Source of the DNA: a virus
Reading direction: 5' to 3' (one strand)
IMG/VR virus record: IMGVR_UViG_3300020459_000068
Location: 1-24,136 of that record
DNA: 24,136 nucleotides
Shown here: positions 6,558 to 9,678 of the stretch, piece after piece
How the letters are laid out: each line of letters begins with the position of its first letter
Numbering within the stretch: the stretch's first letter is position 1
The notes under the pieces: generated by a model
The model's database searches: none
What the model was told of the DNA's origin: nothing
The model's input: only the letters and a program-made list of their open reading frames with translations
Translations under genes and position numbers: made by a program

Positions 6558-7613
6558 ATGAACACAACAGCCACATTAACTAAACCTACAAACTGGAATA
6601 GCTTTTGTGACTGGGTTACTAGCACCAACAACCGACTTTACGTTGGTTGGTTTGGTGTGCTTATGATTCCCGCACTCTTAACAGCAGCTACTGCCTTTCT
6701 AATTGCATTCGTAGCAGCACCACCCGTAGATATTGATGGAATACGTGAACCAGTTGCAGGCTCACTACTCTATGGAAACAACATCATCTCGGGGGCAATC
6801 GTACCCAGCTCAAATGCAATCGGTCTCCACTTCTATCCCATCTGGGAAGCAGCCAATCTCGATGAATGGCTTTACAACGGTGGACCCTACCAGCTCATCG
6901 TCTTCCACTTCCTTATCGGTATCTCAGCTTACTTGGGACGCCAATGGGAACTTAGTTACAGACTAGGAATGCGACCATGGATTTGCGTAGCTTATTCCGC
7001 ACCAGTTGCAGCATCCTTTGCTGTCTTCCTCGTGTACCCCTTCGGTCAGGGGAGCTTCAGTGATGGTATGCCTCTTGGTATTAGCGGTACTTTCAATTTC
7101 ATGTTCGTATTCCAAGCCGAACATAATATCCTCATGCATCCTTTCCACATGCTCGGTGTTGCTGGGGTATTCGGCGGTGCTCTTTTCGCTGCAATGCACG
7201 GAAGTCTTGTTACTTCCTCACTTATTAAGGAAACAACTGGCTTAATTTCTCAGAACTATGGATACAAGTTCGGTCAAGAGGAAGAGACGTATAACATTGT
7301 TGCGGCTCATGGGTACTTTGGGAGACTTATCTTTCAGTATGCCTCTTTTAATAATAGCCGGAGTCTACATTTTTTCCTTGCTACTTTCCCCGTCGTTTGC
7401 ATTTGGCTTACCTCTATGGGAATCTCCACTATGGCTTTTAATCTCAACGGCTTTAACTTTAACCAGTCAGTCGTTGCTGCCAACGGAAGAGTCGTCCCCA
7501 CTTGGGCTGATGTTCTCAACCGTGCCGACTTAGGCATGGAAGTAATGCATGAAAGAAATGCACATAATTTCCCGCTTGATCTAGCGGCTAAAGAGATCGC
7601 ACCCGTCGCTTAA
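6558..7613 (+). CDS. psbA: Photosystem II D1 protein
   Basis: A complete, uninterrupted 351-residue D1 of the phage type. Functional residues are in place (own numbering is one less than the standard): Tyr160 (redox-active Yz), Asp169, His189, His197 chlorophyll ligand, His214, Ser263 and His271 around QB and iron, and the C-terminal manganese ligands His331, Glu332, His336, Asp341 and Ala343. A short 8-residue tail after Ala343 would be removed by CtpA. Residue 129 is Gln (standard 130), as in the D1:1 form. The PEST-like region reads KETTGLISQ at 224-232, instead of the RETTExES of many hosts. The protein replaces photodamaged host D1 so that photosynthesis supports phage growth. It sits right after hli, with no Shine-Dalgarno of its own. 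Confidence 0.98.
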
Positions 7614-7618
7614 CGATA

Positions 7619-7691
7619 CTTCCGTTCATCCCTTCGGGACGCATGAAACCTTAGACATGGAACGGGGTCTGAGGTACTTGGAGTTTTCCAA
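7619..7691 (+). promoter_or_regulatory. Glutamine riboswitch, Downstream-peptide type (candidate)
   Basis: The gap after psbA folds as a compact RNA. P1 pairs CCGTTC 7622-7627 with GAACGG 7660-7665. P2 is a CCC-TTC-GGG hairpin at 7630-7638, followed by the ACGCATGAA junction. A pseudoknot pairs ACCTTAGAC 7648-7656 with GTCTGAGGT 7667-7675 (nine pairs, one G-U), crossing P1. This order, with CGTTCA, GGGACGCA and TGGAACGGGG, is how I remember the Downstream-peptide RNA motif of marine Synechococcus, Prochlorococcus and their phages, a relative of the glnA RNA; both bind L-glutamine. Next to it, TTGGA 7678-7682 can pair with TCCAA 7687-7691, which would hide the GGAG (7680-7683) of the small ORF at 7691: a likely translational expression platform. 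Ligand and direction of control are inferred. Confidence 0.75.
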
Positions 7692-7753
7692 TGACAATCA
7701 AAGTCACATACAAGTATCGCGGCGTTTCTTACACAAAAGCTAAAACTATTTAA
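7691..7753 (+). CDS. Riboswitch-controlled 20-aa peptide, DUF4278-like
   Basis: A 20-residue ORF with a good Shine-Dalgarno (GGAG 7680-7683, seven bases before ATG). It reads MTIKVTYKYRG then VSYTKAKTI. The TYxYRGVSY core resembles the N-terminal strand of DUF4278 proteins, short peptides found in cyanobacteria and cyanophages. The Downstream-peptide RNA motif is named for sitting ahead of such short ORFs, which agrees with the element just upstream. Molecular function is unknown; in hosts related riboswitches control small inhibitors of glutamine synthetase, but this peptide does not look like one. Its stop lies four bases before the next gene, so it may also serve as a leader for translational coupling. 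Confidence 0.65.
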   Translation: MTIKVTYKYRGVSYTKAKTI

Positions 7754-7757
7754 TTTA

Positions 7758-8114
7758 ATGAAATCTATTGCACTTGCTCTAGCAGCATCCACCTTTGCAG
7801 TACCAGCATTCGCAGGTCCATACGTGAATGTAGAATCCAATGCTAACTACACTGGATCTGATTACACATCAAGAGCTACCGACCTACACGTAGGTTATGA
7901 AAACAATATCGGCGATCTTGCTTACTACATACAAGGTGGTAAGACAATTAATGCTGCTGATGGCGTTGATGCAGAGTCTAATTTCTCTGGGAAGCTTGGT
8001 GGTTCTGTCTCTGCTACAGATAAACTTGGTCTCTATGGTGAAGTATCTTTCGCACAAGTGGAAGACGCTGACAACACATACGGCACAAAGTTAGGAGCTA
8101 AGTTCTCTTTCTAA
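7758..8114 (+). CDS. Exported small beta-barrel-like outer membrane protein
   Basis: A 118-residue protein with a clear signal peptide (residues 1-19, MKSIALALAASTFAVPAFA, cleavage after AFA). The mature ~99 residues alternate polar and hydrophobic residues with Gly/Tyr-rich strands (LHVGYENNIGDLAYYIQGGK, GKLGGSVSATDKLGLYGEVS) and end LGAKFSF, with the C-terminal Phe recognised by the BAM machinery. This suggests a small outer-membrane barrel of perhaps eight strands. I recall similar proteins of unknown role near psbA in cyanomyoviruses. No Shine-Dalgarno is visible, and the start is four bases after the riboswitch peptide, so its translation probably depends on that of the peptide. Possible roles include altering permeability or blocking superinfection; none is shown by sequence. 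The stop overlaps the next ORF as TAATG. Confidence 0.78.
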   Translation: MKSIALALAASTFAVPAFAGPYVNVESNANYTGSDYTSRATDLHVGYENNIGDLAYYIQGGKTINAADGVDAESNFSGKLGGSVSATDKLGLYGEVSFAQVEDADNTYGTKLGAKFSF

Positions 8115-8364: not shown

Positions 8365-8371
8365 GTCTCTG

Positions 8372-8409
8372 GAAGAGAGGCACCTCAGAGTCGGACCTCT
8401 CTTTCTTTT
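8372..8409 (+). terminator. Rho-independent terminator at end of the psbA cassette
   Basis: AAGAGAGG at 8373-8380 pairs with CCTCTCTT at 8396-8403 (eight base pairs), enclosing a 15-base loop, and is followed by TCTTTT. It closes the transcript carrying hli, psbA and the small ORFs and separates them from the capsid gene. Confidence 0.72.
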
Positions 8410-8532
8410 GGCTTTCAGCCCCCGAGGGGATACCTGTTAGCCGTCTAGACGGTGGGAAAGACCACAAAAATATCGATTTTAATTTGCGCGCATAGGTTAA
8501 TACATACCCCTTACATTTTAAATTAAAGAAAA
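8410..8532 (+). promoter_or_regulatory. Structured leader / candidate promoter region of the capsid gene
   Basis: After the terminator there are 123 non-coding bases. The first half is GC-rich and self-complementary: a CCC-CGAG-GGG hairpin (8420-8429), a perfect 12-base palindrome CCGTCTAGACGG (8441-8452), and GTGG-GAAAGA-CCAC (8452-8465). The second half is AT-rich and contains TTAATACATACCCC (8497-8510), whose TAATAC is shared with the T7 promoter core, though the rest fits poorly (about 9 of 20 positions). A late phage promoter or an RNA processing site here would suit the abundant capsid protein. The Shine-Dalgarno ahead of 8533 is weak (AAAG). Confidence 0.45.
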
Positions 8533-9678
8533 ATGGCACATCAGTCATCTGATTTAACTACCTCGCTTACACGCCCGGGTCAGTTAAACTCAGCAAACGA
8601 CGCCAGAGCCCTTTACCTTAAATTGTTTTCAGGTGAGATGTTCAAAGGATTCCAGCATGAGTCAATAGCTCGTGACATGGTAATGAAGAGAACATTGAAG
8701 AATGGAAAATCTTTGCAGTTCATCTACACAGGTAGAACAACTGCGGAATTCCATACCCCCGGAAATTCAATACTAGGTAATAGCGACGGCGCACCTCCAG
8801 TTGCAGAAAAAACTGTGACTTGCGATGATCTCCTTATCAGTTCAGCTTTCGTTTATGAGCTCGATGAGACACTTGCTCATTATGAGCTTCGTGGAGAGAT
8901 ATCAAAAAAAATCGGCTACGCTCTTGCAGAGAAATACGATAAGTTAATCTTTAGAGCTATAACAAAAGGTGCAAGACTTGCTTCACCTGTTTCTAAGACA
9001 AACTTTGTTGAACCCGGTGGTACTCAGATTCGTGTAGGTACAACTACAAACGATTCAGATGCTTACAGTGCAACAGGCTTGGTAAATGCATTTTATGATG
9101 CAGCAGCAGCACTCGACGAAAAGGGAGTTTCCTCTCAGGGTCGTTGTGCAGTATTAAACCCACGTCAGTACTATGCTCTAATCCAGCAAACAGGCGACAA
9201 CGGTCTAATCAACAGAGACGTTCAAGGATCTGCATTGCAGTCCGGAAAAGGTGTTGTTGAGATTGCAGGCATCAAGATCTACAAGTCAATGAACATTCCG
9301 TTCCAAGCTAAGCACGGTGTTGCTTATGGCGGAACAACAGGTGAGACAGCACCCGGTAACTTAGGTTCTCATGTCGGTACAGCTATCGGCGATGCAAGAG
9401 CTTCTGTTACAGGTTTAAACAACAACTACGGTAACTCTACTGACTTCGCTAAGTCATGTGGTCTTATCTTCCAAAAGGAAGCCGCAGCAGTTGTAGAAGC
9501 TATCGGTCCACAGGTACAAGTTACTTCAGGGGACGTTTCAGTGGTTTACCAAGGAGATGTCATTCTAGGTAGGTTGGCAATGGGAGCCGACTTCCTAAAC
9601 CCAGCAGCCGCAGTTGAGCTATATACAGGTACTACTGCTCCAGCAGCATTCGGTGCTACATATCCAGCTAACGCTTAA
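8533..9678 (+). CDS. Major capsid protein, T7 gp10-like
   Basis: A 381-residue protein of the HK97 fold as used by T7 gp10A (345 aa in T7). Recognisable parts: GQLNSANDARALYLKLFSGE near residue 17 with FKGFQHESIARDMVMKRTLK, the region that in relatives forms the N arm; KSLQFIYTGRTTAEFHTPG near 60 (E-loop area); VTCDDLLISSAFVYELDETL near 95; and RCAVLNPRQYYALIQQ near 205, a conserved podovirus capsid motif. It forms the icosahedral shell with the scaffold and portal encoded upstream. There is no visible gp10B-type frameshift site near the end: the frame stops at TAA and a strong terminator follows at once. It has its own leader and its own terminator, so it can be a separate, highly expressed transcript. 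Confidence 0.95.
   Translation: MAHQSSDLTTSLTRPGQLNSANDARALYLKLFSGEMFKGFQHESIARDMVMKRTLKNGKSLQFIYTGRTTAEFHTPGNSILGNSDGAPPVAEKTVTCDDLLISSAFVYELDETLAHYELRGEISKKIGYALAEKYDKLIFRAITKGARLASPVSKTNFVEPGGTQIRVGTTTNDSDAYSATGLVNAFYDAAAALDEKGVSSQGRCAVLNPRQYYALIQQTGDNGLINRDVQGSALQSGKGVVEIAGIKIYKSMNIPFQAKHGVAYGGTTGETAPGNLGSHVGTAIGDARASVTGLNNNYGNSTDFAKSCGLIFQKEAAAVVEAIGPQVQVTSGDVSVVYQGDVILGRLAMGADFLNPAAAVELYTGTTAPAAFGATYPANA

Follow-up and report, generated by a model that had tools for sequence, protein, structure and literature searches.

What a glutamine-type RNA senses and controls when it lies directly behind psbA in a cyanophage genome is the question raised by the locus analysed here. The stretch of DNA under study, referred to as the window, is a virus record of 24,136 bases with the gene order of a T7-like cyanophage: ribonucleotide reductase, portal, scaffold, hli and psbA are followed by an intergenic region containing the riboswitch, the major capsid protein and tail genes. 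The names of hli, psbA and the capsid gene were obtained by profile, those of the other genes by synteny with annotated relatives. On the + strand, psbA (photosystem II D1; PF00124, phrog_182) provides the context gene at 6558–7613, and the major capsid protein (PF21703, 261 bits) at 8533–9678 serves as constant downstream landmark. Relatives of the locus were gathered by sequence similarity and with a degenerate pattern in IMG/VR and bacterial genomes; counts derived from this pattern refer to the matches listed and are not to be read as prevalence.

The aptamer and its predicted ligand site

Searching the entire window against all of Rfam with cmscan returned a single family, RF01704, the Glutamine-II riboswitch aptamer formerly called Downstream-peptide, at 7620–7673 of the + strand with 45.9 bits (gathering cut-off 33) and an E-value of 2.2e-8. 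The preliminary description had proposed a pseudoknotted RNA of this very type, built from P1, P2 and a crossing helix, and both the family match and all three helices could be confirmed. The pseudoknot helix CCGUUC/GAACGG, as read from the sequence, joins 7622–7627 with 7660–7665, the stem-loop UCCC UUC GGGA at 7629–7639 represents P1 of the crystal structure, and the long helix between 7648–7656 and 7667–7675, which comprises nine pairs including one G–U, represents its P2, all on the + strand. With numbering and contacts of the crystal structure taken from PMC6698751, the glutamine site could be assigned by homology to PDB 6QN3, where the ligand contacts C1, G18, C39 and G40 correspond to C7623, G7641, C7663 and G7664 of the window. 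The triple partner G2 (7624) and the long-range pair C19–G41 (7642–7665) are also present, and the glutamine-contact nucleotides of 6QN3 are thereby found as C7623, G7624, G7641, C7642, C7663, G7664 and G7665. Judged by sequence, the window RNA is a Glutamine-II aptamer with every published glutamine contact. Together, family match and full predicted ligand site argue for the glutamine-type identity proposed earlier, in a position suited to control the peptide that follows.

Comparison of 102 distinct phage aptamers, among the matches listed, revealed standard pairs in 94.7% of pair cells and a covariation score of 0.328, a value reached by 0 of 500 shuffles, compared to 0.119 after shuffling and at most 0.090 with slid partners. 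Covariation of the helices in related phages, which the earlier proposal had called for, is therefore evident for the long helix, left free by the search pattern, where two-sided changes occur at 7/7 counted pairs, and for part of the P1 hairpin (2/4 pairs). The pseudoknot strands, in contrast, were fixed by the pattern, and their invariance is a consequence of search design that does not constitute independent evidence. Glutamine-II RNA is also found in named isolates including P-SSP7, and isolates reached by BLAST, outside the pattern, carry the aptamer at 48–61 bits.

For the Glutamine-II class, stabilisation of the pseudoknot by glutamine has been reported to turn expression ON, probably at the level of translation, with an aptamer Kd of about 190 µM (PMC6698751, PMC6316151 for the glutamine-ON, probably translational switch; PMC6698751 for the affinity). 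We therefore considered how ribosome access might be switched in the phage RNA. The hairpin TTGGA/TCCAA over the GGAG at 7680–7683, noted earlier, does exist in the window (7678–7691, + strand, −3.9 kcal/mol), but it is not a feature of the family: a comparable Shine-Dalgarno hairpin was found in 13 of 89 relatives among the matches listed, with 9.4 ± 2.6 expected by chance from shuffles. A role as conserved expression platform was consequently rejected. Nested folding with the pseudoknot strands either free or blocked yielded no clear switch to an alternative fold masking the Shine-Dalgarno sequence.

The micropeptide and its host relatives

Behind the RNA, the 20-aa open reading frame noted earlier was found at 7691–7753 of the + strand. 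It encodes the micropeptide MTIKVTYKYRGVSYTKAKTI, in which open reading frame list, conservation and profile point to a single DUF4278-like YRGxxY repeat. Among the matches listed, a short YRGxxY open reading frame (13–79 aa) follows 125 of 130 phage aptamer copies, mostly starting 23–27 nt past the conserved aptamer core. In the remaining five copies the sequence on record breaks off after no more than about 100 nt, hence all 125 assessable copies are followed by such a frame, compared to 2 of 47,483 points drawn at random from these contigs. The peptide occurs mostly in a short form of 13–22 aa, e.g. MVTLKYRGVTYTK, and in a longer form of 32–51 aa with an N-terminal extension, with one case reaching 79 aa; its ribosome site is usually strong. 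Across 85 distinct core sequences among the matches listed, only synonymous changes are seen in the codons for Y, R, G and Y, and pN/pS amounts to 0.46 over the ten-codon core. Constraint of this kind on the amino-acid sequence speaks for a peptide with a function. From its recurrence in these loci, we take it that the conserved partner of the phage aptamer is the peptide. Most isolate records, P-SSP7 among the named isolates carrying it, hold no annotated feature at this site; the S-TIP37 record lists the peptide as a 38-aa hypothetical protein.

What the preliminary description had missed is the kinship of this peptide, which by profile is a single DUF4278 repeat akin to the protein the host keeps behind its own glutamine riboswitch. 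In Prochlorococcus, the Glutamine-II aptamer is followed by a protein of 55–58 aa with three YRG/YRR repeats, which is a DUF4278 protein (Pfam, E 6e-11). A profile built from the phage peptides matches the C-terminal repeat of the host protein with up to 21.7 bits, whereas 1,000 shuffled host sequences reach 5.2 bits at most, and the third repeat scores best by position-specific score in 31 of 37 hosts among the matches listed. Additionally, the shortest phage peptides end in YTK, as does the host DUF4278 protein. With 29.9 bits, one of the long phage forms exceeds the Pfam cut-off for DUF4278 (PF14105, 25.3 bits), whereas the other phage forms tried fall below it, and the 20-aa peptide of the window, too short to reach a match, gave none. 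Since profile kinship is thus combined with the lack of a Pfam match, the window peptide is best described as related to DUF4278, not as a formal member. In a structural model of the host DUF4278 protein that is too weak to build on (pLDDT 66), the first and last YRG units appear as short beta-hairpins. According to a review, type-2 glutamine riboswitches of picocyanobacteria are associated with DUF4278 proteins, whose expression the switch raises at nitrogen excess and which resemble the N-terminal part of the glutamine synthetase (GS) inactivating factor IF17; binding and inhibition of glutamine synthetase is a proposed but unproven function of these host proteins (PMC6316151).

Several features of the locus are shared with systems described before. 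Aptamer, ligand site, nearby short open reading frame and DUF4278-type product are common to the phage locus and the Glutamine-II RNA (RF01704) of marine picocyanobacteria (PMC2864571, PMC6698751, PMC6316151), a class known to occur with very short open reading frames of 17–100 aa (PMC2864571). The phage RNA, however, lies between operon genes instead of behind its own promoter region, and it is followed by a ribosome site that is usually strong and by a peptide of one repeat, whereas the host RNA precedes a three-repeat protein. With DUF4278 proteins (PF14105), including the N-terminal part of IF17 and Prochlorococcus PMM1846, the phage peptide has in common the YRGxxY repeat and the preceding glutamine riboswitch, but it comprises one repeat instead of three, mostly stays below the Pfam cut-off and lacks the inhibitory part of IF17. 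Glutamine riboswitches are already known in other marine phages (PMC9004378); those of T4-like phages and methylophages (PMC9004378, PMC9964418) are, however, glnA-like (type-1) and reside at other loci. In the literature, with subscription journals mostly outside coverage, we found no description of a Glutamine-II RNA or a one-repeat DUF4278 peptide in T7-like cyanophages.

What the riboswitch may control

The gene next to the peptide, at 7758–8114 of the + strand, encodes a cyanophage outer-membrane-like barrel with a signal peptide (PF24653, 154.6 bits at a Pfam cut-off of 27, E 1.8e-45; phrog_417), and its ATG lies four bases past the peptide stop and lacks a Shine-Dalgarno sequence, in agreement with the preliminary description. 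The AlphaFold model (pLDDT 85) displays six long strands behind the signal peptide; among solved folds, outer-membrane barrels including OmpX and OmpA come nearest, at no significant E-value, and the viral models most similar to it are further OMP-like proteins of cyanophages (E 1.1e-12). From this arrangement, gating of the barrel by glutamine through coupling had been proposed, in which case the peptide would mainly be a leader whose glutamine-dependent translation delivers ribosomes to the outer-membrane-like protein. The gap of −1 to +17 nt observed where both genes occur would allow coupling. However, no more than about 19 of 113 loci among the matches listed have the barrel behind the peptide, with the other 94 running from the peptide to the capsid gene without it, and the peptide sequence is constrained even in phages lacking the barrel. 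The missing Shine-Dalgarno sequence was rejected as an argument for coupling, since 18 of 19 barrels sited elsewhere lack one as well. As a rule for these phages, the proposed gating cannot be upheld, and we regard a mere leader function of the peptide as improbable. The barrel gene may rather be an optional passenger, the translation of which may or may not be coupled.

The neighbourhood of psbA could point in another direction, with the aptamer acting as a 3' element on psbA mRNA, which its glutamine-bound fold protects or shortens, so that D1 supply is tied to nitrogen. At 7611–7627 of the window, the psbA stop ends 9 nt before CGUUCA and the pseudoknot strand, and a distance of 8–11 nt from the psbA stop to the aptamer start is found in 35 of 89 loci among the matches listed, but the aptamer lies farther away in the other 54 and is located upstream of psbA, not downstream, in two (L039, L100). 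Moreover, RNA and peptide are kept in many intervals devoid of psbA, which is absent from the stored sequence in 15 of the 22 short scaffold-to-capsid intervals carrying the RNA among the matches listed, a sample defined by scaffold and capsid genes both near the aptamer, which favours short intervals and overstates psbA absence. This shows that psbA is dispensable at the riboswitch locus. Control specific to psbA is weakened by variable spacing and psbA-free intervals alike, the idea of a nitrogen sensor tied specifically to a photosynthesis cassette finds no support, and we consider a 3'-element function highly improbable. The constant feature is instead the position upstream of the capsid gene, which is retained with or without psbA, the capsid gene following in most loci. 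This fixed site, along with a second conserved RNA structure located past the peptide and before the capsid gene, would suit an RNA that acts on the capsid-region transcript, where glutamine-dependent translation of the peptide alters termination, processing or decay between early-middle genes and capsid mRNA and the peptide itself is a by-product. A search of the window's + strand from the peptide to the capsid gene found no intrinsic terminator, though, and the amino-acid constraint favours a functional peptide; we therefore judge this explanation unlikely, if the least so of the three.

We propose a model, to which we assign slightly better than even chances, in which a glutamine-ON translational riboswitch, located upstream of the capsid gene, directs synthesis of a peptide with one DUF4278 repeat, a mimic or competitor of a host nitrogen regulator. 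According to this model, the intercistronic Glutamine-II aptamer of T7-like cyanophages would act as translational switch for a micropeptide of mostly 13–22 or 32–51 aa with one DUF4278 (YRGxxY) repeat, and high host glutamine would lead to synthesis of the peptide. The peptide would then occupy whatever partner the host DUF4278 protein has, with glutamine synthetase and regulators of this enzyme as no more than candidates, and nitrogen assimilation would be biased during infection. The further-reaching notion that the phage carries a host nitrogen-regulatory protein reduced to a single repeat and placed under a host-type glutamine sensor, as a peptide-sized effector retuning nitrogen assimilation by glutamine level, is more tentative, and we would rate it as possible but rather doubtful.

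If the peptide works, the phage reads the nutrient state with an RNA of 54 nt and responds with a peptide that can be as short as 13 residues; the role of DUF4278 proteins in Prochlorococcus then becomes testable via a minimal natural version. P-SSP7 and other T7-like cyanophages serve as models for viruses that infect abundant marine photosynthesisers; sensor and peptide are unannotated in most of their records, and such a virus may be reading and answering the nitrogen state of its host. T7-like cyanophages are amenable to gene deletion by REEP (PMC8776855). As to the 8–11 nt spacing between psbA and aptamer, it is so short that a ribosome terminating on psbA could disturb folding of the RNA.

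Further structured elements near the capsid gene and in other phages

The second conserved structured RNA is located at 8408–8468 of the + strand, upstream of the capsid gene, and follows the scheme UUGGC..GCC-[stem UACG stem]-AUACC..GCCGUCUAGACGGUGGGAUAGACCAC. By similarity search, it was found in 103 riboswitch loci (96 distinct) among the matches listed, P-SSP7 included. Covariation is visible at the fourth pair of its outer stem (UA 45, AU 29 and GC 5 of 88) and at a pair of the tetraloop stem (CG 41, GC 26, UA 12), in an alignment of which some rows are incomplete at the 5' end. An Rfam search of this region returned chance-level matches only, and the element is absent from Rfam; it is possibly a processing signal or the leader of the capsid mRNA. 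Directly 5' of it, a hairpin is present at 8365–8407, which also occurs in L006 (4232–4302) and, past the peptide, in L008. In many phages this hairpin resembles a tRNA T-arm (GGGAGGUUCAAGUCCUCCC), and in NATL1A-7 a whole tRNA-Gly is found at this place.

In the T4-like phage P-SSM2 (L256, 556–952), a type-1 glutamine aptamer (35.1 bits, cut-off 35) is followed by a 49-aa open reading frame and then by the DUF4278 gene PSSM2_320, which lies about 200 nt behind the aptamer and encodes two YRG units (29 bits for DUF4278). Glutamine aptamer and YRG protein therefore meet in a second phage lineage. In S-SM1 (L257, 535–582), a sub-threshold RNA resembling a glutamine aptamer (28.9 bits for type-1, cut-off 35) lies directly 5' of a 56-aa open reading frame between nrdB and talC.
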